Assembly: GCF_034661235.1 (NCBI RefSeq) | Contig: NZ_CP141059.1 | Coordinates: 1,859,501 to 1,923,500 of the forward strand | DNA from: Nocardioides bizhenqiangii | GTDB taxonomy: Bacteria > Actinomycetota > Actinomycetes > Propionibacteriales > Nocardioidaceae | Length of the DNA: 64,000 nt | Reading direction: 5' to 3' | Part shown: in pieces, positions 13,770-25,612 of the stretch | Layout of the letters: each line of letters begins with the position of its first letter | Position numbering within the stretch: position 1 is the stretch's first letter | The notes under the pieces: model-generated | What the model saw: the letters and a program-made list of their open reading frames with translations, nothing else | What the model was told of the DNA's origin: nothing | Database searches by the model: none | Program-made: the position numbers and the translations under genes

Positions 13770-15365
13770 TCAGCGTCCGGGTCGCTCGAGGAGCCGCGCC
13801 CAGGCCGTGCTCAGCAGCCGCTTCCGGACGATGCCCGAGCCACCGAGGGCGGACCGCGCGGCGTTCCACCCGCACGCACCGTGCACGCCCCCGCCGGGGT
13901 GCGCCGAGGCACCGGCCAGGTAGAGGCCCTCGATCGGTGTCTCGGGACGGCCCAGCCCGGGGGTCGGTCGGAAGATCAGCTGCTGGTGGATCCCCGACGT
14001 GCCGGCGTTGAGCGCCCCGTCGACCAGGTTGGAGTCGGCCTCCTCGAGGTCGTGCGGTCGTTGCACCTGCTCGGCGAGGACGGTGTCCGCGAATCCCGGT
14101 GCGTGGGTCTCGATCAACTGGCGCACCTGCTCCGCCACCGCGTCGACCGCGTGCGGGTCGCTGGCGACCCGGTGCGGGAGGTGGGTATAGGCCCAGGCGC
14201 TCTCGGTGCCCGGCGGTGACCTGGTCGGGTCGGCGGTGCTCATCTGGCCGAAGAGGACGAACGGCGCACGCGGCGCGCGCTGGTTCGACAGGTCGGCCGC
14301 GAAGTCCACGAACCCTGCCTCGTCGACCCCGACGTGGACGGTCCCGGCGCCGCGGGCTCCGGCCGCGGTCCACGGCACCGGCTCGCGGAGGGCCCAGTTG
14401 AACTTGAGGGTGGGGTTGTCCCAGTGGAAGCGCTCCAGGGCGGCGAGGAACCGCGCCGGGAGGTGCTCTGCATCGACCATCTCGCCGTACAAGGTCGGGG
14501 CGTCGACGTCGGCCAGCACGGCCCGCTTGGCGTCGACACGAGTGCCGTCGGCAAGACGTACGCCGGTCGCGCGCCCGCCGCTGACCTCGATGTCGGTCAC
14601 GCGGGTGCCCGTCAGCAGCTCGCCGCTGTTCGCGCGGAAGCGGGACGCGAGAGCGTCGGCCAGCCGTTGCGCGCCGCCCTGCGGGACGGGGAACCCGACG
14701 TCCTGGCCGAGCATGCACAGCAACCAGCCGTACATCCCGCTGCCGGCCGAGTCCGGGCCGACGTCGGAGTGCATCGCGTTGCCGGTGAGGAGGACCGCAG
14801 CGCCTTCCCCGTTGAACCGCTCGTCGGCCAGGCGATGGACCGGGAGCACTGCCTGCCGTAGCAGGTCGAGCGCGTCCGCTGTCCCGAGCGCGCGCAGCAG
14901 GCGCACGCTCGGGCGGATCGGCGGGAACGGGGTGAAGAGTGCGTCCAGGAGCGGATCGCGCACTCGTTGCCACTGCTCGCAGAGCTCCAGCCAGGCGTCG
15001 CCGTCCCCGGCTGCGAACTCCTCGAGACCCGCGGCCGTGTCCTCGGGTCGGCGATGGAGCACCGCCGCCCGGTCGTCCGGCAGCACGTGGGTGAGGACGT
15101 CGGGCGCCTGCGTCCACTCGAGACCGTGTGCCTGCAGGTCGAGGCCCTGGATCACCGGAGATGCCGCCGCCAGCGGGTAGAACGCGCTGAACAGGTCGTT
15201 GCAGAACCCTGGTGCGGTCACTTCCGCGCTGCGGACGGCACCGCCGACGACGTCGTTCGCCTCGACCAGCAGCACCTCCCAGCCGGCGTCGACCAGGGCG
15301 TTGGCGGCGACCAGCCCGTTGGGTCCGGCTCCGATGACGACCGCGTCGACCGGGCCACGGGTCAT
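13770..15365 (-). CDS. FAD-dependent phytoene-desaturase-like oxidoreductase
   Basis: The 531-residue protein has an N-terminal Rossmann motif VVIGAGPNGLVAAN (G12, G14, G17) followed by LLVEANDVVGGAVRS. It ends with a C-terminal FAD block LYLAGASAHPGGGVHGACG, as in CrtI/PYROXD2-type amine oxidase superfamily members. No crtB or other carotenoid gene is nearby, so carotenoid desaturation is not implied and the substrate is unknown. Its ATG overlaps the stop of the upstream alcohol dehydrogenase (ATGA), so the two form an operon. Confidence 0.88.
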   Translation of the reverse strand: MTRGPVDAVVIGAGPNGLVAANALVDAGWEVLLVEANDVVGGAVRSAEVTAPGFCNDLFSAFYPLAAASPVIQGLDLQAHGLEWTQAPDVLTHVLPDDRAAVLHRRPEDTAAGLEEFAAGDGDAWLELCEQWQRVRDPLLDALFTPFPPIRPSVRLLRALGTADALDLLRQAVLPVHRLADERFNGEGAAVLLTGNAMHSDVGPDSAGSGMYGWLLCMLGQDVGFPVPQGGAQRLADALASRFRANSGELLTGTRVTDIEVSGGRATGVRLADGTRVDAKRAVLADVDAPTLYGEMVDAEHLPARFLAALERFHWDNPTLKFNWALREPVPWTAAGARGAGTVHVGVDEAGFVDFAADLSNQRAPRAPFVLFGQMSTADPTRSPPGTESAWAYTHLPHRVASDPHAVDAVAEQVRQLIETHAPGFADTVLAEQVQRPHDLEEADSNLVDGALNAGTSGIHQQLIFRPTPGLGRPETPIEGLYLAGASAHPGGGVHGACGWNAARSALGGSGIVRKRLLSTAWARLLERPGR

Positions 15366-16543
15366 GGCTTGAAGACGACCTTGATCATCCCGTCCTCCTT
15401 GTCGCGGAACTTCGCGTAGGCCTCGGGGGCATCGGTCAGGGGGAGTCGATGGGTCGCGAAGGTCTCGGTGCCTAGAGGATCGCTGTCATCGGTGAGCAAG
15501 GGCAAGATGTCGTCGCTCCAGCGACGCACGTTGGCCTGACCCATCCGCAGCTGGATCTGCTTGTCGAACATCTGCATCATCGGCATCGGGTCGGTGGCGC
15601 CGCCGTAGACGCCGACGACCGACACCGTGCCGCCGCGGCGGACCGCGTCGATGGACGCGTGCAGCGCCGCCAGCCGGTCGATGCCGGCGTTCACCATCAG
15701 CTTGCGGGCAGCGACGTCGGGAATCAGTCCGACCGCCTTGATCATCGTCTCGGCCACCGGGTTGCCGTGCGCTTCCATGCCGACGGCGTCGATCACGGAG
15801 TCGGCCCCTCGGCCAGAGGTGCGGTCGCGCACCTCGGCCGCGAAGTCGTCGACCTCGTCGATGTCGATGGTCTCCGCGCCGACCTCGCGCACCCGCTGCA
15901 ACCGCTCGGGCACGCGGTCGGCGACGATCACGCGGTGTCCCTCGTGCAGGGCGATGCGAGCCGCCATGTCGCCGATCGGACCGGCACCCATGACGAGGAG
16001 CACGCCGTCGTCAGGCAGGTCGGCGTAGCGCACCGCCTGCCACGCCGTCGGCAGCACGTCGGACAGGTAGACGAACCGGTCGTCCGACGGGCCCTCGGGG
16101 ACCTTGATGGGGAGGAAGTTGGCGAACTGTACGCGGAGGAGCTCGGCCTGTCCGCCCGGAACCTGGCCGTAGAGCTTGCTGTAGCCGAGCAGGCTCGCGC
16201 CCGTGCCGGACTCCCGGTTCTGGGTCGTCTCGCACTGGCTGTGCAGTCCCCGCCGGCAGGTCCAGCACTCGCCGCAGCTGATGTTGAAGGGGACGACCAC
16301 CCGGTCGCCCACCTTGATCTCGGTGACCTCCGACCCGATCTCCTCGACGATGCCCATTGGCTCGTGGCCGACGATGTCGCCGGCCGTCATGAACGGCCCG
16401 AGCGGGTCATAGAGGTGGAGGTCCGAACCGCACAGGCCGGTCGTGGTGACCCGGATGATCGCGTCGGTCGGCTTCTCGATCGTCGGGTCGGGGACCTCCT
16501 CGACGCGCATGTCCTTCGGTCCCTGCCAGGTCACTGCCTTCAC
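15362..16543 (-). CDS. Zinc-dependent alcohol dehydrogenase (MDR family)
   Basis: The 393-residue protein has catalytic zinc ligands C38 (GLCGSD) and H60-E61 (VGHEP), a structural zinc set C90, C93, C96 and C104, and the NAD site GAGPIG at 186-191. The internal FWTPFN-like region and the insertion before the C-terminus resemble glutathione-independent formaldehyde dehydrogenase-like members. The GTG at 16543 is firmly supported by AGGAGG 7 bases upstream. It is the first gene of a two-gene operon with the FAD oxidoreductase. Confidence 0.92.
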   Translation of the reverse strand: MKAVTWQGPKDMRVEEVPDPTIEKPTDAIIRVTTTGLCGSDLHLYDPLGPFMTAGDIVGHEPMGIVEEIGSEVTEIKVGDRVVVPFNISCGECWTCRRGLHSQCETTQNRESGTGASLLGYSKLYGQVPGGQAELLRVQFANFLPIKVPEGPSDDRFVYLSDVLPTAWQAVRYADLPDDGVLLVMGAGPIGDMAARIALHEGHRVIVADRVPERLQRVREVGAETIDIDEVDDFAAEVRDRTSGRGADSVIDAVGMEAHGNPVAETMIKAVGLIPDVAARKLMVNAGIDRLAALHASIDAVRRGGTVSVVGVYGGATDPMPMMQMFDKQIQLRMGQANVRRWSDDILPLLTDDSDPLGTETFATHRLPLTDAPEAYAKFRDKEDGMIKVVFKP

Positions 16544-16733
16544 CGGTCGTCCTCCTGGTTGTGGTGCTGAAGCTCTGGATGTCCGGTCGTTACCCGGTTT
16601 CCCGGTCGCTAGTGGACTCCTCTCCGAACCGGCACGCGTGGCCACGGAACATCGTTCCGCGGCAAAGGAACGCCTTCAGGACATGAACCACATCCAGCGG
16701 CGCTGGTGCGGCGCCACACGAGAGGAGATCGTC

Positions 16734-17406: not shown

Positions 17407-17967
17407 ATGACCATCCAGATCGCCCAGGACCCCGCCGCCGACAAGGTCTTGTCGGACGACTCGTTCGCGCTCCTCACCGGAATGCTGCTGGACCAGCAGT
17501 TCCCGATGGAGCGGGCATTCGCCGGCCCGGCGAAGATCCTCGACCGGTTCGGCACGCTCGACCCCGCCCGGATCGCCGCGGCCGATCCGGAAGCGTTCGC
17601 CGATCTCTGTGCGACCCCGCCCGCCATCCACCGCTACGGCCGATCGATGGCCGGCCGGGTGCAGGCCCTGGCCGCCCAGGTCGTCGAGGAGTACGGCGGG
17701 GACGCGAGCCGGATCTGGCGGGAACCCGCGAGCGGCGCCGACCTCCTCAAGCGGCTCCAGGAGCTGCCGGGCTTCGGCAAGCAGAAGGCGCAGATCTTCG
17801 TCGCCCTCGTCGCCAAGCAGCTCGGCGTACGTCCTGACGGGTGGGAGCAGGCGGCCGGCGACTACTCGTTGGACGGCTACCGCTCGGTCGCCGACGTGGT
17901 GGACGCGGCATCGCTCCAGAAGGTCCGGGAGTTCAAGCAGGCGAAGAAGGCCGCCGCGAAGTCCTAG
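17407..17967 (+). CDS. HhH-GPD family base-excision DNA repair protein
   Basis: The 186-residue protein has a helix-hairpin-helix LQELPGFGKQKAQIFVALV (about 116-134) and an N-terminal LLTGMLLDQQFPMERAF, matching the short actinobacterial HhH-GPD glycosylase-like family (TIGR03252 as I recall). It is expected to excise damaged bases, but it is shorter than MutY/Nth and lacks an Fe-S cluster loop. The ATG follows a CAGGAT box by 6 bases, the leaderless spacing. Confidence 0.87.
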   Translation: MTIQIAQDPAADKVLSDDSFALLTGMLLDQQFPMERAFAGPAKILDRFGTLDPARIAAADPEAFADLCATPPAIHRYGRSMAGRVQALAAQVVEEYGGDASRIWREPASGADLLKRLQELPGFGKQKAQIFVALVAKQLGVRPDGWEQAAGDYSLDGYRSVADVVDAASLQKVREFKQAKKAAAKS

Positions 17968-17972
17968 TCCGA

Positions 17973-18024
17973 ATTCCCGAAGGTAAAACCGGGAATCAAC
18001 TGCTTCCGGGAATCGGGTGATTCC
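17973..18024 (+). promoter_or_regulatory. Inverted repeats upstream of the tetR-hydrolase-BVMO operon
   Basis: ATTCCCG (17973-17979) pairs with CGGGAAT (17990-17996). GGAATC-GGGT-GATTCC (18009-18024) is a perfect palindrome directly against the -10 box. CCGGGAATC also occurs twice. These share one half-site (GGAAT/ATTCC) and are strong candidates for the operator of the downstream TetR protein. Confidence 0.6.
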
Positions 18025-18026
18025 TG

Positions 18027-18032
18027 TATGGT
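18027..18032 (+). promoter_or_regulatory. -10 box of the leaderless six-gene catabolic operon
   Basis: TATGGT ends 6 bases before the ATG at 18039. The adjacent palindrome at 18009-18024 would block RNA polymerase when occupied. Confidence 0.55.
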
Positions 18033-18038
18033 CGGGTC

Positions 18039-18725
18039 ATGGCCACCGAGACCATCGCCCCTGCCGCGGGGTCGGGCCGCCTCTGGCAGGGCCAGACACC
18101 CGATGCGCGGGCGGCCGACCGCCGGCAGCGTCTCGTCGAGGCCGGCCTCGAGCTGGTCGGCACCCAGGGCGTGACGGCGCTGACGATGCGGGCTGCGTGC
18201 CGGGAGGCGGCAGTCGGTCCGCGCTACTTCTACGACCTGTTCGCCGACCGCGACGAGCTGCTGGCCGCCGTCTACGACGAGGCCGTCGAGCGGATCCGTG
18301 AGCCGATCCTCGCGGCCGCCGTCGCGGTCAATGCCACCGACGGCGTCGCCGCAGCGCTCCTCGAGGCCTTCGACACCGCGGTCGCGGTGGTCGAGGACGA
18401 TCCCAGGATCGGACGCGTGCTCTTCCGTGAGTCGGCTGCCGACGAGACGTTGCGGCCCCGGTCGCAGGCGGCGATGCCCGAGTTCGTGCTGTCCGTGCTG
18501 GCCGAGCTGGTGCCCGAGGAGGCCGAGGCGTTGCGGCAGCCGTCGCGGGCATGGACGGTGATCGGGTTCTCGGCGGCGATCTTCGCGCTGTTCCTCGCCT
18601 GGAGCGAGGGTGCCCGGCACACCCCCCGCGCCGAGTTCGTGCACCACTGCGCCCGGCTCGCGGTGGACCAGCTCGGGCTCGACATCGAGCTGCCGTCGGT
18701 CGCCCGGTCAGGCGGTCGGCGTTGA
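18039..18725 (+). CDS. TetR-family regulator of the catabolic operon
   Basis: The 228-residue protein has an N-terminal helix-turn-helix with RRQRLVEAGLELVGTQG, ALTMRAACREAAVGPRYF and YDLFADRDELLAAVYDEA, canonical for TetR repressors that use PRYFYxxF recognition helices. It heads the operon and overlaps the next gene by TTGA, so it almost certainly regulates the cluster, probably as a repressor released by a pathway metabolite. The operator palindromes lie immediately upstream. Confidence 0.92.
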   Translation: MATETIAPAAGSGRLWQGQTPDARAADRRQRLVEAGLELVGTQGVTALTMRAACREAAVGPRYFYDLFADRDELLAAVYDEAVERIREPILAAAVAVNATDGVAAALLEAFDTAVAVVEDDPRIGRVLFRESAADETLRPRSQAAMPEFVLSVLAELVPEEAEALRQPSRAWTVIGFSAAIFALFLAWSEGARHTPRAEFVHHCARLAVDQLGLDIELPSVARSGGRR

Positions 18726-19528
18726 TCTCCGTCGACCGCCGCGGCGCAGGCGACCCGATCGTGCTGGTCCACGGCATCGGCAGCCGCTGGCAGAGCTTCG
18801 AACCGGTCCTCGACCGACTTGCCGAGCACCACGAGGTGATCGCGATCGACCTCCCAGGTTTCGGCGCCTCCCCGCTCGTCGACGGCGTGCGGCCCGGCCC
18901 CCGCGGCTATGCCGACTGGCTCGCCGGCTGGCTCGCGGCCAACGACGTCGCCCGTCCGCACCTGGTCGGCAGCTCCATGGGCGGCGGGGTCGCCCTCGAG
19001 CTCGGCCGCGCGGGAGTCGCGTCCTCGGTGACGGCCTTCTCGCCGGTCGGGTTCTGGGGTACGGCGGGTCTGCGCTGGACCCAGAGCCTGCTGACCGGCC
19101 TGAGGACCGGTGCCCGGACCGCCGCACCGGTGCTGAACCGGATGCTCGACCACCCGGCCGGTCGCGCCGTGCTGCTGAGCAACATGTTCGGCCATCCGAC
19201 GCGGATCCCGCCCGAGGTCGCGCGCGCGGACCTCGCCGGGCTGGCCGCGGCAACGGGGTTCGCCGCCGCGCGGAAGGACTTCGGGAGCTACTTCCTCGGC
19301 TCCGACGACGACCCGGGCGCGCTGGTCGACGTCCCGGTCACGATCGCCTGGGGCACGCGCGACGTCGTCCTCATCCATCGCTCGCAGAGCGCCCGGGCCC
19401 GCGAGGTGCTCCCGTTCGCCCGCCACGTCGACCTCGCCGGTTGCGGGCACCTGCCGTTCAACGACGATCCCGCGCGGTGCGTCGGGCTGATCCTCGAGAA
19501 CGCCGCAGCCACGAAGGAGACGCGATGA
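18722..19528 (+). CDS. Alpha/beta hydrolase
   Basis: The 268-residue protein has VLVHGIGSRWQSF (oxyanion region), the nucleophile elbow GSSMGG with S85, acid D214 (GTRDVV) and H243 (CGHLPF). This is a complete triad of an esterase, lactonase or C-C hydrolase. The TTG at 18722 overlaps the tetR stop, and its own stop overlaps the BVMO start. Placed beside a Baeyer-Villiger-type enzyme, hydrolysis of the ester or lactone it makes is the natural role (inference). Confidence 0.9.
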   Translation: MISVDRRGAGDPIVLVHGIGSRWQSFEPVLDRLAEHHEVIAIDLPGFGASPLVDGVRPGPRGYADWLAGWLAANDVARPHLVGSSMGGGVALELGRAGVASSVTAFSPVGFWGTAGLRWTQSLLTGLRTGARTAAPVLNRMLDHPAGRAVLLSNMFGHPTRIPPEVARADLAGLAAATGFAAARKDFGSYFLGSDDDPGALVDVPVTIAWGTRDVVLIHRSQSARAREVLPFARHVDLAGCGHLPFNDDPARCVGLILENAAATKETR

Positions 19529-20970
19529 ACCCCTCTGTCGCCGTCATCGGCACCGGGTTCGGTGGCCTGGCCGCCGTCATCGAGCTGAAGAAGCGCGGCT
19601 TCGACGACATCGTCGTCTTCGAGAAGGCCGAAGACGTCGGCGGCGTCTGGCGCGAGAACACCTACCCCGGCGCCGCGTGCGACGTGCCCTCGCCGTTCTA
19701 CTCGTTCTCGTTCGAGCCCAACCCCCGCTGGCCGCACCGGTTCTCCCGCCAGCCGGCGATCCTCGGCTACATGCGCCACGTCGCCGACAAGTACGACGTC
19801 CGTCGGCACGTCCGCTTCAGCACGGAGGTCACCGGAGCGTCGTACGACGCCGCCGCCCTGAAGTGGACGGTCGAGCTCAGCTCCGGCGCCCAGGTCGTCG
19901 TCGACGTGCTGGTGTCCGCCGTCGGGCAGCTCTCGCGGCCGTCCTACCCGGAGATCGAGGGCGCCGACTCCTTCGACGGGCCGATGTTCCACTCCGCCGA
20001 GTGGGACCACGACGTCGACCTGGCGGGCAAGCGGGTCGCGGTGATCGGCACCGGCGCGAGCGCCATCCAGTTCGTGCCGGAGATCCAGCCCGAGGTCGAG
20101 CACCTGACGGTGTTCCAGCGCACCCCGCCCTACATCATCCCCCGCTTCGACCGGGAGTTCTCCGGCACGCACCACAAGGTCTTCGAGCGGCTGCCAGCGA
20201 CCCAGCTGGTCGAGCGCGGCACCTGGTACGGCGTCGTCGAGGGGCTCAGCGTCGCGTGGGTCTACTCCAAGCCGCTCGCCAGGACCATCAAGGCGATCTC
20301 GAAGTGGCACATGCGGCGGCTCACCAAGGCGAAGCCCGGGCTGTTCGAGAAGGTCTGGCCGAAGTACCAGATCGGGTGCAAGCGGATCCTGTTCTCCAAC
20401 GACTACCTGCCGACCCTGGCCCAGCCCAACGTCGACGTCAGCACCCAGCGGATCACCGGGATCGTCCCCGCCGGGGTGCGGACGGTGGACGGAAAGGTGC
20501 ACGAGGTCGACGTAGTCATCTGGGGCACCGGCTTCAAGGCCACCGAGTTCCTCGCGCCGATGTCGATCAAGGGCAGCGAGGGTCGCGACCTCCACGACGA
20601 GTGGCGCGGCGGCGCCCGCGCCTACTACGGCATGACCGTCCCGCACTTCCCCAACCTGCTCGTCATGTACGGCCCCAACACCAACACCGGCGGCGGGTCG
20701 ATCATCTACTTCCTCGAGGCGCAGGCGAAGTACCTCGGCGACTACGTCGAGCACCTCGCCGCGGCCGGCGCCCCGCTCACCGTCAGGCCCGAGGTCGAGC
20801 AGGAGTACGACGACCGCATCCAGGGGCTGCTCTCCGAGAGCGTGTGGACCCAGTGCTCGTCCTGGTACCGCAACGAGGACGGCCGGATCACGACGAACTG
20901 GCCGACGCTCGGGGTCCAGTACAAATCGCAGGCGAAGTTCGACCCTGCCGACTACGAGGTGGTGTCCTGA
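19525..20970 (+). CDS. Baeyer-Villiger-type flavin monooxygenase
   Basis: The 481-residue protein has two Rossmann motifs, GTGFGG at 9-14 (FAD) and GTGASA near 174 (NADPH). Between them at 150-161 lies FDGPMFHSAEWD, a match to the class B Baeyer-Villiger fingerprint FxGxxxHxxxW(P/D). DVVIWGTGFKATEF near residue 340 is also typical. These enzymes insert oxygen beside a ketone to give an ester or lactone using NADPH and O2. AAGGAG precedes the ATG by 6 bases, and the start overlaps the hydrolase stop as ATGA. Confidence 0.9.
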   Translation: MNPSVAVIGTGFGGLAAVIELKKRGFDDIVVFEKAEDVGGVWRENTYPGAACDVPSPFYSFSFEPNPRWPHRFSRQPAILGYMRHVADKYDVRRHVRFSTEVTGASYDAAALKWTVELSSGAQVVVDVLVSAVGQLSRPSYPEIEGADSFDGPMFHSAEWDHDVDLAGKRVAVIGTGASAIQFVPEIQPEVEHLTVFQRTPPYIIPRFDREFSGTHHKVFERLPATQLVERGTWYGVVEGLSVAWVYSKPLARTIKAISKWHMRRLTKAKPGLFEKVWPKYQIGCKRILFSNDYLPTLAQPNVDVSTQRITGIVPAGVRTVDGKVHEVDVVIWGTGFKATEFLAPMSIKGSEGRDLHDEWRGGARAYYGMTVPHFPNLLVMYGPNTNTGGGSIIYFLEAQAKYLGDYVEHLAAAGAPLTVRPEVEQEYDDRIQGLLSESVWTQCSSWYRNEDGRITTNWPTLGVQYKSQAKFDPADYEVVS

Positions 20971-22640
20971 TGACTCCCTACGACTACGACGTGATCGTTG
21001 TCGGGTCCGGCTTCGGCGGCAGCGTGACGGCGCTGCGGCTCACCGAGAAGGGCTACCGCGTCGGCGTGCTCGAGGCCGGCCGCCGCTGGGACGCCGACAA
21101 CCTCCCGAAGACCAACTGGAACGTCCGCAAGTCGATCTGGGCCCCCCGGCTGGGGTTGACCGGCCCTCAGCGGATCAGTGCTCTCGGCAAGTGCCTGGTC
21201 TTCAGCGGGGCGGGTGTCGGCGGCGGTTCGCTGATCTACGGCAACACGCTCTACGAGCCGCTCCCGGAGTTCTACCGCGACCGGGCGTGGGCACACATCA
21301 CCGACTGGCGCGACGAGCTGGCGCCCTATTACGACCAGGCGAAGCGGATGCTCGGCGTGGTCGAGAACCCGCGGACCGGTCCCAAGGACGACCTGCTGCT
21401 GCAGGTCGCGCGCGACCGCGGGGTGGCCGAAACCTTCCACAAGACCCAGGTCGGCGTCTTCTTCAACGAGGGCAGCGAGGGCGAGGAGGTCGACGATCCC
21501 TACTTCGGCGGGGCCGGACCGCGCCGGGCCGGCTGCATCCACTGCTCGGACTGCTTCACCGGCTGCAAGCACAACGCGAAGAACACCACGACGATGAACT
21601 ACCTCTACCTGGCCGAGGAGCACGGCGCCGAAGTCCACCCGCTCACGACCGTCACGTCGGTGGAGCCCGACGGGGCCGGCGGCTACGTCGTCGAGACCGA
21701 GCGCTCCAACGGCAAGCTGCGGAACGGGCGTCGTACCTTCACTGCGGAGCACGTGGTCTTCGCCGCGGCCGCGCTCGGTACCCAGAAGCTGCTCCACAAG
21801 CTGCGTGACGACGGGACCCTCCCCGGCCTGTCGCCGCGGCTGGGCGAGCTGACCCGCAGCAACTCCGAGGCGATCCTGGGCGTGCAGAGCCGCAGCCGCG
21901 ACGACTTCGCCCAGGGCGTCGCGATCACGTCGTCCATCCATCCCGAGCCGCAGACGCACGTGGAGGTGTGCACCTACGGCAAGGGGCACAACTCGCTGTT
22001 CGCGCAGACCGTGCCGATGGTCGACGGAGGGGCTTTCCGGTTCCTGCGGTTCCTGCTGACCATCGTGCTGCACCCGCTGCTGTTCCTGCGGTCGCTGAAC
22101 CTCAGGAGCGCCTCCGAGCGGTCCGTCATCCTGCTGGTCATGCAGTCGCTGGACAATTCGCTGACGTCCTACCTCAAGGGCGGCCAGCTCAAGACGAAGC
22201 AGGGGAAGGGCGAACCGAACCCCGACTGGCTCCCGATCGCCCACGAGATCGCCAGGGAGTACGCCGCCAAGGCCGATGCCGACACCGGCAACATCGCCAC
22301 CGACATCTTCAACATCCCGGCCACCGCGCACTACATCGGAGGCTGCACGATCGGTGACTCCCGCGACACCGGCGTGATCGACCCCTATCAACGGGTCTAC
22401 GGCCATCCCGGGCTCCACATCGCTGACGGAAGCGCGATCACCGCCAACCTCGGCGTCAACCCGTCGCTGTCCATCACCGCCCAGGCCGAGCGCGCGATGG
22501 CGTTCTGGCCCAACAAGGGGGAGTCGGACGCCCGGCCGGCCCTCGGTGCGCCGTACCAGCGGATCGCGCCGGTCATGCCCAACCACCCCGTCGTCCCCAC
22601 GTCGGCGCCCGGCGCGCTGCGGCTCCCGGCGAGCGCCTGA
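20970..22640 (+). CDS. GMC-type (cholesterol-oxidase-like) oxidoreductase
   Basis: The 556-residue protein starts with the FAD motif VVGSGFGGSVTALRL and has SGAGVGGGSLIYGNTL, both typical of bacterial cholesterol-oxidase-like GMC proteins. The C-terminal block has AHYIGGCTIG, LHIADGSAI and NLGVNPSLSITA, carrying the expected His and Asn active-site pair. An unusual cysteine set, C189, C192, C195 and C199 (GCIHCSDCFTGCK), lies mid-protein. It would oxidise an alcohol, sterol or terpenoid to a ketone. Its ATG overlaps the preceding stop by one base. It may act as a dehydrogenase rather than an oxidase. Confidence 0.9.
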   Translation: MTPYDYDVIVVGSGFGGSVTALRLTEKGYRVGVLEAGRRWDADNLPKTNWNVRKSIWAPRLGLTGPQRISALGKCLVFSGAGVGGGSLIYGNTLYEPLPEFYRDRAWAHITDWRDELAPYYDQAKRMLGVVENPRTGPKDDLLLQVARDRGVAETFHKTQVGVFFNEGSEGEEVDDPYFGGAGPRRAGCIHCSDCFTGCKHNAKNTTTMNYLYLAEEHGAEVHPLTTVTSVEPDGAGGYVVETERSNGKLRNGRRTFTAEHVVFAAAALGTQKLLHKLRDDGTLPGLSPRLGELTRSNSEAILGVQSRSRDDFAQGVAITSSIHPEPQTHVEVCTYGKGHNSLFAQTVPMVDGGAFRFLRFLLTIVLHPLLFLRSLNLRSASERSVILLVMQSLDNSLTSYLKGGQLKTKQGKGEPNPDWLPIAHEIAREYAAKADADTGNIATDIFNIPATAHYIGGCTIGDSRDTGVIDPYQRVYGHPGLHIADGSAITANLGVNPSLSITAQAERAMAFWPNKGESDARPALGAPYQRIAPVMPNHPVVPTSAPGALRLPASA

Positions 22641-22651
22641 GAGGAACCACG

Positions 22652-23191
22652 ATGACCACGACGAACCCAACCGGCCGGCTCGAGGCGCTCGGAACCGCGT
22701 GCGACGCGGCCGAGGCGCAGGCATTGTTCGACAGCCTCTCGGCCGTCCGCCCGGAGGAGCTCACCGGCCGGTTCAGCGGCCGTGAGCTGGCGACCGGCCA
22801 CCCGATGGACGGGCTCCTCGAGGCATCCGGGTGGTACGGCAAGCAGTTCGACGGCGTCGACCACGTGCACCCGCTGCTCTTCCGTGATCTCGGCGGCGCG
22901 ATCTTCCCGGTCGAGCCGCGGAAGGTGCCGCTGGGCATCGTGCCCAAGCTGCCGGCGGCCGTGGTCGCCCGGTCAAGGGCCGCGGTCGGGGCCCTCAAGC
23001 CGGTGCTGCGCACGAAGAAGCACCGCGCCCGGCTCCGCGCGGTCGAGCACCGTGGCGTGGTGACGGCCGCGATGGTCTACGACCACCTGCCGATCATCGA
23101 CGTCTTCCGCCGGGTCGACGCCGACACCCTGCTGGGCGTGATGGACCTGCGAGGCGCCCCGCCGTACTACTTCGTCCTGACGAGGGACTGA
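22652..23191 (+). CDS. GXWXG / DUF4334 domain protein
   Basis: The 179-residue protein has an N-terminal GXWXG-type domain (ATGHPMDGLLEASGWYGKQF) and a C-terminal DUF4334 domain (RAVEHRGVVTAAMVYDHLPI and LRGAPPYYFVL). The biochemical role of this pair is unknown; it may bind a small hydrophobic substrate. GAGAGGAA lies just before the ATG, and the gene sits 11 bases after the GMC gene, inside the operon. Confidence 0.88.
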   Translation: MTTTNPTGRLEALGTACDAAEAQALFDSLSAVRPEELTGRFSGRELATGHPMDGLLEASGWYGKQFDGVDHVHPLLFRDLGGAIFPVEPRKVPLGIVPKLPAAVVARSRAAVGALKPVLRTKKHRARLRAVEHRGVVTAAMVYDHLPIIDVFRRVDADTLLGVMDLRGAPPYYFVLTRD

Positions 23192-23194
23192 GGC

Positions 23195-23995
23195 ATGACT
23201 CCTGCGGAGCTGAGCCACGCCGACCTGCGCCTCGAGGTCGGGGGTGGGGTCGCGACGATCACGCTGGACCGGCCCGGCGTGCGCAACGCGCAGCGGCCCC
23301 GGATGTGGGCGGGCCTCGCGCGGATCCTGGACGAGCTCGACGAGTCGGTGCGGGTCGTCGTGCTGCGCGGTGCGGGCGGCACGTTCTCGGCCGGGCTCGA
23401 CCTGTCACTGCTCGACCCGGCGCAGCCGGACGAGGAGGGCAATTTCGTCGCCACCCTGGCGCTGGACGACCGGGCGATCATCGACCAGATCGACGTGTTC
23501 CAACGGCCGTTCGCGATGCTGGCGGACCCGCGTTTCATCACCGTCGCGGTGGTCGAGGGCCACGCCATCGGCGCCGGCTTCCAGCTGGCGCTGTGCTGCG
23601 ACCTGCGGATCGCCACCGACGACGCCCGGTTCTGCATGAAGGAGCCCGCCCTCGGGCTGGTGCCCGACCTGGTCGGCACCAAGCCGCTGGTGGCGGCCGT
23701 CGGCTATGCCCGCGCGCTGGAGATCTGCGCGACCGCGCGGACCGTCGCCGGCACCGAGGCGGGCGAGATCGGCCTGGCCCAGGTGGTCGTCCCCGCCGCG
23801 GAGCTGGACGCTGCCCTCGCGGCGACCGTCCACGCGCTCACGGCGCACCCGCACGGCGCGGTCAGCGCGACCAAGGCGCTGCTCCAGGCGGCCCCCGCGC
23901 GGAGCCTGGACGATCAGCGTCTCGCGGAACGGACCGCCCAGGTCGCGCGCTTCCGCGACCTCGCCGCCGCGTTCGCGCCGGCCGCGGGGGAGTGA
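23195..23995 (+). CDS. Enoyl-CoA hydratase / isomerase family protein
   Basis: The 266-residue crotonase-fold protein has the two oxyanion-hole motifs GTFSAGLDLS and GHAIGAGFQLAL. Glu residues sit at both catalytic positions (KEPALG and ALEICATA), so true hydratase activity is plausible. It follows DUF4334 by 3 bases and ends the operon; it could process the acyl-CoA formed from the acid released upstream. There is no nearby acyl-CoA ligase, so activation would use an enzyme encoded elsewhere. Confidence 0.9.
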   Translation: MTPAELSHADLRLEVGGGVATITLDRPGVRNAQRPRMWAGLARILDELDESVRVVVLRGAGGTFSAGLDLSLLDPAQPDEEGNFVATLALDDRAIIDQIDVFQRPFAMLADPRFITVAVVEGHAIGAGFQLALCCDLRIATDDARFCMKEPALGLVPDLVGTKPLVAAVGYARALEICATARTVAGTEAGEIGLAQVVVPAAELDAALAATVHALTAHPHGAVSATKALLQAAPARSLDDQRLAERTAQVARFRDLAAAFAPAAGE

Positions 23996-24118
23996 ACGGT
24001 CACACCGCGCCCGGTGTGCGGACGATGTCCAGGTGCGTGGCAGAATGGCCATTGCGGTCTTGACGCCTCCGGGCTGTGCCGCGCCCTACTGCCAGTTCTG
24101 CCGTATCGAGAGGTGTTC

Positions 24119-25612
24119 GTGTCGTCGAACGCACGCAAGGTCCCCGCTGCGGTGCTCGCGCACCCATCCATCGTCGCCCTGGTCGATCGGGCCACTCCGA
24201 TGGGCAGTGTGAGTCCCGAGGAAGTGCGGCAGGCGTGCGCCGACGCTGACGTCGCCGCGCCGCACCTGAAGTCGCTCCTGGGCCATCTCGCGGGCCTCGG
24301 CATCACCGTTGCGATGCCCGCCAGTGGACGCGCCGTAGCCGCGTCCGGCAGGAGCAAGACCGCGACCAGCCCCGTGAAGAAGGCGCCCGCCAAGAAGGCA
24401 CCGGCGAAGGCCGCCGCTGCCAAGTCGGCCGCGCCGGCCAAGAAGGCCGCCCCGGCGAAGAAGGCCGCGCCGGCGAAGAAGGCCGCTGCGAAGGCTGGCG
24501 AGGCCGCTCCCGAGTCTGCCGCTCCGGTCATCGGCCCCGACGGCAAGAAGATCCTGCCCGATCTCCCCGACGAGCAGTTCGAGAAGGACGTCAAGGCCGA
24601 CCCGACCATCGTCGAGGACGAGAAGGAGGCTGCGTCGGCGTCGTTCGTCGTCTCGGCCGCCGACGACACCGACGAGCCCGAGCAGCAGGTCATGGTCGCC
24701 GGCGCGACCGCCGACCCGGTCAAGGACTACCTCAAGCAGATCGGCAAGGTGCCGCTCCTCAACGCCGAGATGGAGGTCTCGCTCGCCAAGCGGATCGAGG
24801 CCGGTCTCTTCGCCGACGAGAAGCTCGCGCGCGGCAACAAGATGTCCGCCAAGCTGCTCGAGGAGCTGGAGTGGATCGCCGAGGACGGCCGGCGTGCCAA
24901 GAACCACCTGCTCGAGGCCAACCTCCGGCTCGTCGTCTCGCTGGCAAAGCGCTACACCGGCCGCGGGATGCTGTTCCTGGACCTGATCCAGGAGGGCAAC
25001 CTCGGTCTGATCCGGGCGGTCGAGAAGTTCGACTACACCAAGGGCTACAAGTTCTCGACGTACGCCACCTGGTGGATCCGGCAGGCGATCACCCGCGCGA
25101 TGGCCGACCAGGCCCGGACCATCCGGATCCCGGTGCACATGGTCGAGGTCATCAACAAGCTCGCCCGTGTCCAGCGCCAGATGTTGCAGGACCTCGGCCG
25201 CGAGCCGACCCCGGAGGAGCTCGCCAAGGAGCTCGACATGACTCCCGAGAAGGTCGTCGAGGTCCAGAAGTACGGGCGTGAGCCGATCTCCCTGCACACT
25301 CCGCTGGGCGAGGACGGCGACTCCGAGTTCGGTGACCTGATCGAGGACTCCGAGGCGATCGTCCCGGCGGACGCGGTCAGCTTCACGCTCCTGCAGGAGC
25401 AGCTGCACGCCGTGCTCGACACGCTGTCCGAGCGCGAGGCCGGCGTGGTCTCGATGCGGTTCGGTCTGACTGACGGACAGCCGAAGACGCTCGACGAGAT
25501 CGGCAAGGTCTACGGCGTGACCCGCGAACGGATCCGTCAGATCGAGTCCAAGACCATGTCGAAGCTGCGGCACCCGAGTCGGTCCCAGGTCCTGCGCGAC
25601 TACCTGGACTGA
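24119..25612 (+). CDS. rpoD: Principal RNA polymerase sigma factor (RpoD/SigA/HrdB)
   Basis: The 497-residue protein has region 1.2 ([16 protein letters not shown]), regions 2.1-2.4 ([46 protein letters not shown]), region 3 and a region 4 helix-turn-helix ([19 protein letters not shown]). This is the housekeeping sigma factor. Between the N-terminus and region 1.2 lies an Ala/Lys/Pro-rich tail with repeated PAKKA units (about 82-125), as in other actinobacterial primary sigma factors. GTG codons occur at 24113 and 24119; the second has GAGAGG 5 bases upstream and is chosen. Confidence 0.95.

Follow-up and report, generated by a model that had tools for sequence, protein, structure and literature searches.

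Six genes at positions 18039-23995 of a 64-kb stretch of the Nocardioides bizhenqiangii genome (contig NZ_CP141059.1, positions 1,859,501 to 1,923,500; hereafter the window) appear, on balance, to form an operon, inducible by its substrate, for the breakdown of a hydrophobic secondary alcohol or ketone. The host genome comprises 4.55 Mb in a single contig. The proposal is based on gene content, conservation, motifs and the conservation of an operator. An initial annotation of this DNA had put forward a unit leading from an alcohol by way of a ketone and an ester to an acid, an idea that is reasonable and not new in kind. The present analysis adds a definition of the core genes, a local and conserved regulation, the possibility that the GMC oxidoreductase is an iron-sulphur flavoenzyme, and the finding that the beta-oxidation end of the pathway is unsupported.

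All six genes lie head to tail on the forward strand. They encode a TetR-family regulator with a TetR_N domain, probably a local autorepressor (18039-18725; PF00440, 29.3 bits, cut-off 24), an alpha/beta hydrolase with a TTG start codon (18722-19528; PF12697 and PF00561), a type I Baeyer-Villiger monooxygenase (BVMO) of 481 residues, recognized from Pfam, motifs and nearest solved structures (19525-20970), a GMC oxidoreductase of the ChoD/ChoxAB type with 556 residues (20970-22640; PF00732, 42.2 bits, and PF05199, 52.3 bits), a DUF4334/GXWXG protein (22652-23191) and a crotonase-superfamily protein (23195-23995; PF00378, 134 bits). The regulator and hydrolase genes, and likewise the hydrolase and BVMO genes, overlap by 4 bases, the BVMO and GMC genes by 1 base; gaps of 11 and 3 bases precede the DUF4334 and crotonase genes, respectively. 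Coordinates and open reading frames thus agree with the head-to-tail row with gaps of at most 11 bases described initially, and each of the six families named there was assigned by Pfam above its cut-off. Since neighbouring genes overlap, co-transcription is suggested. A terminator scan of 17900-24200 returned two sites, both on the reverse strand, against 1.6 expected. Neither a transporter nor a CoA ligase is found among the six genes by Pfam and NCBIfam.

In a DUF4334-anchored scan of public genomes, for which the best 80 loci from 182 relatives were kept, BVMO, GMC and DUF4334 genes stand head to tail in 22 loci, belonging to Nocardioides, Nocardia and one Propionibacteriales metagenome-assembled genome. 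The hydrolase precedes these three genes in 17 of the 22 clusters, a TetR gene of the window type is present in four, and the crotonase follows in four, once 1.8 kb further on. An aldehyde dehydrogenase (ALDH), absent from the window operon, is encoded between hydrolase and BVMO in four. Two loci narrowly miss the core order, L043 being frameshifted and L044 having its DUF4334 gene divergent from GMC and BVMO. An AraC-type cluster replaces TetR upstream in L027, L036, L046 and L068 (in L027 by Pfam), and in Nocardia loci, L025 and L037 the place of TetR is taken by a divergent gene of another cluster that reads as TetR-like. BVMO, GMC and DUF4334 are thus the conserved core, and regulators, ALDH and crotonase are exchangeable.

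Within the genus, 6 of 78 genomes encode a cluster-type GMC (at least 76% identity). Apart from our own, each of the other five has BVMO and DUF4334 genes adjacent to it, with the hydrolase in four, TetR and crotonase in three each and an ALDH in two; four of these five are the genomes of L012, L015, L027 and L037 and are not new cases. Class-level searches with GMC and BVMO covered 296 genomes, with 150 rows of each match list used. Among the matches listed, 83 genomes have both proteins, encoded by genes that start within 7 kb of each other in 25 of the 83 and within 2.5 kb in 13, our own included. The slot of DUF4334 after the GMC gene is occupied in L145 (7104-7691) and L148 (10280-10930) by an acetoacetate-decarboxylase-family protein, and in L144 a LysE transporter gene follows the GMC. 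Thirteen other GMC loci (L101-L113) have a BVMO-like gene beside the GMC in three cases and no DUF4334 match above 80 bits.

The regulatory region is conserved. Two adjacent 16-bp palindromes lie upstream of the regulator gene on the forward strand, GGAATCAACTGCTTCC at 17992-18007, which is imperfect and has 0.06 matches expected in the window, and GGAATCGGGTGATTCC at 18009-18024, which has perfect arms. The operator palindromes of the initial annotation can therefore be placed as two copies at 17992-18024, conserved as a pair in seven genomes. A search of the window with GGAATCNNNNGATTCC, allowing at most one mismatch, found two matches, side by side, against a mean of 0.06 in shuffled sequence, and two matches occurred in none of 100 shuffles. 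The consensus of the pair over the seven genomes is GGAATCRnnYGCTTCCnGGAAKCGnnYGATTCC, in operon sense or mirror. In all seven a TAYGGT box follows the pair after 2-3 nt; in the window this is TATGGT (18027-18032, forward strand), a -10-like hexamer 6 nt before the start codon. The 6-nt spacing is kept in L012, L014, L015, L016 and L043, and is 7 nt in L097. A leaderless promoter may thus be located at the TetR start.

The 33-bp double operator, which reads on both strands owing to its dyad, was also sought in 78 genus genomes including our own, with up to three mismatches and with the reversed pattern as control. It was found in four (G000, G034, G050 and G063), at one site each and always at this promoter; the control gave no match in the 78 genomes. 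Because the pattern was partly drawn from L015 and L012, whose genomes are G034 and G050, G063 is the sole fresh case. The four operator genomes fall among the six with a cluster-type GMC, and the remaining two (G020 and G053) have clusters without this TetR. A further inverted repeat at 17973-17996 is confined to the window and was not found in the five relatives scanned. None of the seven NCBIfam families listed for the TetR protein reaches its cut-off. The arrangement is best read as one local regulator and one operator, to which two TetR dimers would bind, with autoregulation.

By its motifs, the third protein is a true type I BVMO. The fingerprint FDGPMFHSAEWD reported in the initial annotation is located at residues 150-161 (19972-20007, forward strand) and conforms to FxGxxxHxxxW[P/D], with F150, G152, H156 and W160 invariant in 22 sequences. 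D53 and R287 are also invariant in 22 sequences, and we take them, from their sequence context, to be equivalent to the active-site residues D66 and R337 of phenylacetone monooxygenase. The nearest solved relative is steroid monooxygenase (1.2e-72), with phenylacetone monooxygenase also among the closest; the window protein has 481 residues versus about 540-550 in these two enzymes. The second BVMO motif, [A/G]GxWxxxx[F/Y]P[G/M]xxxD, is matched by GGVWRENTYPGAACD at residue 39, and two GxGxx[G/A] Rossmann motifs are present, GTGFGG at residue 9 and GTGASA at residue 175 (motifs as defined in the available text of PMC12724338). A BVMO paralogue with 42% identity is encoded elsewhere in the genome (G000:C1:771571-780620, gene at 775919-777355), with fatty-acid-desaturase family genes on both sides. 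The hydrolase has a GSSMG nucleophile elbow together with WGTRD and GCGH motifs, and GxSMG is found in 17 of the 18 proteins listed, that of the window included; the exception is a truncated gene call.

The N and C domains of the GMC protein both exceed the Pfam cut-offs, and its catalytic His/Asn pair (H454/N497) is invariant in 31 sequences. The best named family is NF058674 (cholesterol oxidase ChoxAB); with 537 bits against a cut-off of 850, identity with this equivalog was rejected. The same family model gives 582.4 bits for a GMC paralogue in the same genome and 1037.7 bits for a relative from an Acinetobacter BVMO cluster. A mycofactocin GMC identity was also rejected (42.8 bits, cut-off 387.45).

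Residues 189-199 of the GMC protein read CIHCSDCFTGC (21534-21566, forward strand), a candidate iron-sulphur site of the form CxxCxxCxxxC, a pattern similar to that seen in 4Fe-4S ferredoxins. None of the four cysteines varies across the 31-sequence GMC alignment, in which identity goes down to 42%. The motif is present in 120 of 120 database relatives among the matches listed (8000 scored), in 27 of 28 GMC calls of the loci (the one without it is a fragment from the frameshifted L043), in all 20 of the loci L092, L093 and L096-L113, and in each of the 14 GMCs that are linked to a BVMO in the class loci. Cysteines are absent from this position in the two solved cholesterol oxidases for which alignments were compared. 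A phmmer search of the PDB with the cysteine-loop fragment returned cholesterol oxidase at an E-value of 0.035 and one unrelated chain. The structure model of the GMC (pLDDT 68.6) is too weak for reading the geometry of the cysteines; its Foldseek matches have a root-mean-square deviation of about 8 or more, and those to fructose dehydrogenase (FDH) have TM-scores of 0.55-0.58. We infer that the cysteines hold an electron-transfer iron-sulphur cluster, and the enzyme may be an electron-donating dehydrogenase.

There are precedents for such a cluster in this fold. FDH carries a 3Fe-4S cluster in its GMC subunit. In the FAD-glucose dehydrogenase of Burkholderia cepacia (BcGDH), which has the GMC fold, a loop (197-229) supplies three cysteines to a 3Fe-4S cluster that accepts electrons from FAD, as described in the available text of PMC6719666. 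The window protein resembles it in having a loop cysteine cluster at a comparable place in the GMC chain, the loops being compared unaligned, and in the His/Asn pair; it differs in that the three ligands there are spaced 5-3 (PMC6719666, as far as available), whereas the four cysteines here are spaced 2-2-3. Hitchhiker and multihaem cytochrome c partner genes of the BcGDH/FDH type are not found among the six operon genes. A literature search, in which the subscription literature was thinly covered, gave no report of this operon or of an iron-sulphur cluster in this GMC type.

In a maximum-likelihood tree of 46 GMC rows (45 of them different, some genomes being present twice, and the long branches, L093 and L107 among others, being unsure), the cluster type forms one clade with 100/99 support, apart from the ChoD type. 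It comprises 27 rows labelled BVMO-linked, plus L028. Because the starred branches force at least four changes of BVMO linkage, the pairing of GMC with BVMO arose or was lost repeatedly. The paralogue in our genome (L002/L101, G000:C1:3565317-3567008) is of the ChoD type; it is 60% identical to the window GMC and has the same cysteine motif, but belongs to the separate clade and has an ALDH neighbour, its gene lying between one that is probably guaA-like (GATase domain) and one for a GabD2-type ALDH, with no BVMO or DUF4334 match in the 16 kb searched. Its clade includes rows from other genus genomes. ChoD of mycobacteria is likewise a ChoD-type GMC encoded beside a guaA-like gene. The initial annotation had noticed neither the cysteine motif nor this paralogue nor the ALDH of the relatives, and its account of the GMC was to that extent incomplete.

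The DUF4334/GXWXG protein contains both PF14231 (84.7 bits) and PF14232 (93.1 bits), each with a cut-off of 25, and is predicted to be a single-domain beta-barrel resembling the solved, uncharacterised structure 4mve. As lipocalin and fatty-acid-binding protein rows tie with de novo barrels in the fold comparison, no barrel family is claimed. Ten Nocardia loci (within L023-L045, e.g. L031:1096-2600) encode a second, distant DUF4334 paralogue, 35-40% identical to that of the window, about 3 kb upstream of the core and adjoining a zinc alcohol dehydrogenase and a gene that reads as TetR-like.

In the crotonase, the catalytic glutamates are presumably expected at the positions of Glu144 and Glu164 of rat enoyl-CoA hydratase. 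With columns matched by eye, the first of these positions is Gln (GAGFQLA) in all five orthologues and the second Glu is kept (KEPALG). An enoyl-CoA hydratase reading was dropped on account of the Gln, and the gene, being linked to just four of the 22 core clusters, is best seen as accessory. Both its rarity and the change of the first Glu leave the delivery of an acid to beta-oxidation, with which the initial annotation had ended the pathway, unsupported; the self-regulated unit of type I BVMO, GMC and serine hydrolase withstands the comparison.

Our proposal for the operon is as follows. TetR would bind the two palindromes next to the -10 box of the putative leaderless promoter, repressing the whole unit, including its own gene, until the substrate or a pathway intermediate frees the operator. 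The GMC flavoenzyme would oxidize the alcohol to a ketone and would pass electrons out via an iron-sulphur cluster on the four cysteines, oxygen being no acceptor or not the sole one. By the chemistry of its family, the BVMO would insert oxygen to give an ester or lactone, from which the alpha/beta hydrolase would release an acid and an alcohol. Further oxidation of the released primary alcohol could fall to this GMC or its paralogue and to an ALDH; in some relatives the operon includes the ALDH gene, and in this genome the enzyme would come from elsewhere. To judge weakly from its fold, the DUF4334 barrel most likely binds a poorly soluble intermediate of the pathway.

Several observations weigh against this proposal. 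A sigma-70 consensus promoter was not found in 17900-24200, so that of the leaderless promoter annotated initially the TATGGT box 6 nt from the ATG and its conserved spacing are what can be retained. An ALDH is encoded in just four of the 22 core clusters, and the hydrolase is missing beside the BVMO in five; the possibility, raised with the initial annotation, that homologous clusters routinely lack the hydrolase thus meets a mixed result. The head-to-tail core is missing around DUF4334 in 58 of the 80 loci, a number that is a maximum since contig ends cut 14 of the 80 to less than 16 kb; the role of DUF4334 is therefore not specific to a BVMO-GMC pathway. Many of these non-core loci share a Nocardia neighbourhood in which one gene recurs in 35 loci. 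Among 15 relatives labelled BVMO in the class loci, eight have Pro or Asp as the last fingerprint residue, three have Asn and four Arg, which puts seven of them outside the strict fingerprint, with the window protein inside. The cysteine motif is no proof of a bound cluster, and it is not needed for the logic of the pathway, because a Burkholderia BVMO cluster (L095) has a distant GMC that aligns over no more than 57 residues of the C-terminal part and lacks the motif. Finally, the GMC may act after the BVMO, and the alcohol may be a sterol, given that the nearest named GMC family is a cholesterol oxidase and that the genome has sterol-ring genes.

The first of these two possibilities amounts to a ketone-utilisation operon, in which the BVMO would act first on a ketone, the hydrolase second, and the GMC would make from the released primary alcohol an aldehyde for an ALDH. 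As relatives have an ALDH in the cluster, the substrate of the GMC may indeed be the primary alcohol set free from the ester, in place of or besides the first secondary alcohol. The position of that ALDH between hydrolase and BVMO, found both in the four core clusters and in G063 (L097), agrees with such an order, as does L013, where an ALDH gene directly adjoins DUF4334 without BVMO or GMC. The ChoD-type GMC also pairs with an ALDH, as its GabD2-type neighbour shows, and does so with no BVMO match in its 16 kb. Against this stand the 18 of 22 core clusters with no ALDH inside the operon and the naming of the ChoD/ChoxAB family for a secondary (sterol 3-beta) alcohol, and we regard a ketone-first operon as a tentative alternative to the alcohol-first pathway.

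A steroid unit, in which the GMC would oxidize 3-beta-hydroxysteroids in the manner of cholesterol oxidase and the BVMO would act as a steroid monooxygenase, cleaving a side chain or ring ketone, seems unlikely. It would accord with ChoxAB as best named family of the GMC, whose cut-off the Acinetobacter BVMO-cluster relative passes, and with steroid monooxygenase as best solved relative of the BVMO. The genome also encodes HsaD (467.7 bits, cut-off 400) and a KstR-like regulator just under its cut-off. These two genes lie about 0.7 Mb from the operon, however, and the window GMC itself stays under the ChoxAB cut-off. The operator was found once in this genome, so the operon lies outside any wider sterol regulon with that operator, and placement in a sterol regulon was not adopted. 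Relatives of this general kind, moreover, use aliphatic 2-ketones, according to the available text on AlmA (PMC12388405) and on SadD (as cited in PMC12753306). The region with the HsaD and KstR-like genes (G000:C1:2578919-2618711) is a probable sterol-ring degradation locus.

The genome also encodes, at about 60 kb of its contig (G000:C1), an AlkB-like protein fused to rubredoxin (L119:1036-2562; FA_desaturase and Rubredoxin domains, NYLEHYG motif). With this fusion and the HsaD and KstR-like genes present, both alkane-derived and sterol-derived alcohols stay candidates for the proposed pathway. About 4 kb past the AlkB-rubredoxin gene (at 64460-65503 of the contig) lies the gene for a flavin monooxygenase with 31% similarity to the window BVMO. 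In the parts of the literature available, 2-decanone and 2-dodecanone are substrates of AlmA from A. vivianii (PMC12388405), and aliphatic ketones of medium chain length are substrates of BVMO_4041 from R. erythropolis (PMC12724338); A. guillouiae, whose proteome contains BVMOs, consumes 2-ketones of C10-27 (PMC12753306). We favour aliphatic or alicyclic substrates with moderate confidence, and aliphatic ketones are at least as likely as a sterol, terpenoid or alicyclic substrate. A detoxification unit, in which BVMO and GMC would give protection from reactive ketones or aldehydes without use of their carbon, would suit a small regulated set of six genes with neither transporter nor CoA ligase, but is very improbable beside a hydrolase in 17 and an ALDH in four of the 22 core clusters, which resemble a sequential pathway.

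Among known systems, the mymA operon of Mycobacterium tuberculosis combines a BVMO with a hydrolase, dehydrogenases and an AraC-type regulator; to our knowledge it contains neither a GMC nor a DUF4334 gene. In Acinetobacter (NZ_CP104448.1, L093), AraC, BVMO, SDR, hydrolase and GMC genes stand in a row whose BVMO is 48% and whose GMC is 43% identical to those of the window, the GMC having the same cysteine motif. It differs in its AraC-like regulator and an extra gene like a short-chain dehydrogenase/reductase (SDR), both identified by reading, in a hydrolase of the Abhydrolase_3 family and in the absence of a DUF4334 match. The Burkholderia glumae plasmid locus (L095), with AraC, ALDH, GMC and a fused BVMO-hydrolase gene, has the same kinds of enzymes adjacent and a BVMO 47% identical, but no DUF4334 match and no annotated TetR. 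The fusion of BVMO to alpha/beta hydrolase is encoded at L095:4944-7409, beside ALDH and GMC. Having a GMC of another type without the motif, this cluster was withdrawn as support for the present GMC type and supports the chemistry only.

The sad cluster of Acinetobacter sp. NyZ410 (Yin et al. 2022, via the available text of PMC10045523, PMC12753306 and PMC13055320) serves subterminal alkane oxidation. By these descriptions its secondary-alcohol enzyme SadC, the BVMO SadD and the esterases SadA and SadB lead from a secondary alcohol through ketone and ester to a primary alcohol, much as proposed here. It has two esterases, whereas the window operon has one hydrolase, and the descriptions available name no DUF4334, crotonase or TetR; as the comparison was made by description only and the two-esterase arrangement is lacking, the operon was not assigned to the sad type. 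AlmA-type BVMOs are described from A. baylyi (as cited in the available text of PMC12449030) and A. vivianii (PMC12388405). They share the type I fingerprint, and recombinant AlmA of A. vivianii converts 2-decanone and 2-dodecanone to octyl and decyl acetate (PMC12388405, as far as available); the AlmA work available concerns Acinetobacter.

In the literature available to us, the breakdown of alcohols and ketones by way of BVMOs is described for Acinetobacter, Thalassolituus, Pseudomonas and a few Rhodococcus enzymes. An actinobacterial version that is regulated and widespread would tie many uncharacterised BVMOs to a pathway, and the conserved core offers a concrete setting for finding the function of DUF4334. 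If the cysteine motif does bind an iron-sulphur cluster, many proteins annotated as cholesterol oxidase or ChoD could be dehydrogenases, not oxidases, and their role would have to be understood differently. More speculatively, the operon might represent an actinobacterial respiratory module of subterminal oxidation, in which a 4Fe-4S GMC, so far named cholesterol oxidase, would feed the respiratory chain without forming H2O2, and DUF4334, as a novel class of small barrel proteins, would carry the insoluble ketone or ester among GMC, BVMO and hydrolase, with the acetoacetate-decarboxylase-like protein in that slot in some actinobacteria.

The operon is flanked on one side by a TIGR03252 DNA glycosylase gene (17407-17967) and on the other by an open reading frame that, by reading of the list of open reading frames, resembles a primary sigma factor. 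Further upstream of the operon, at a distance of two genes, the reverse strand of the window (13770-16645) encodes a flavoprotein of the amine-oxidase family (PF01593) and a zinc alcohol dehydrogenase.

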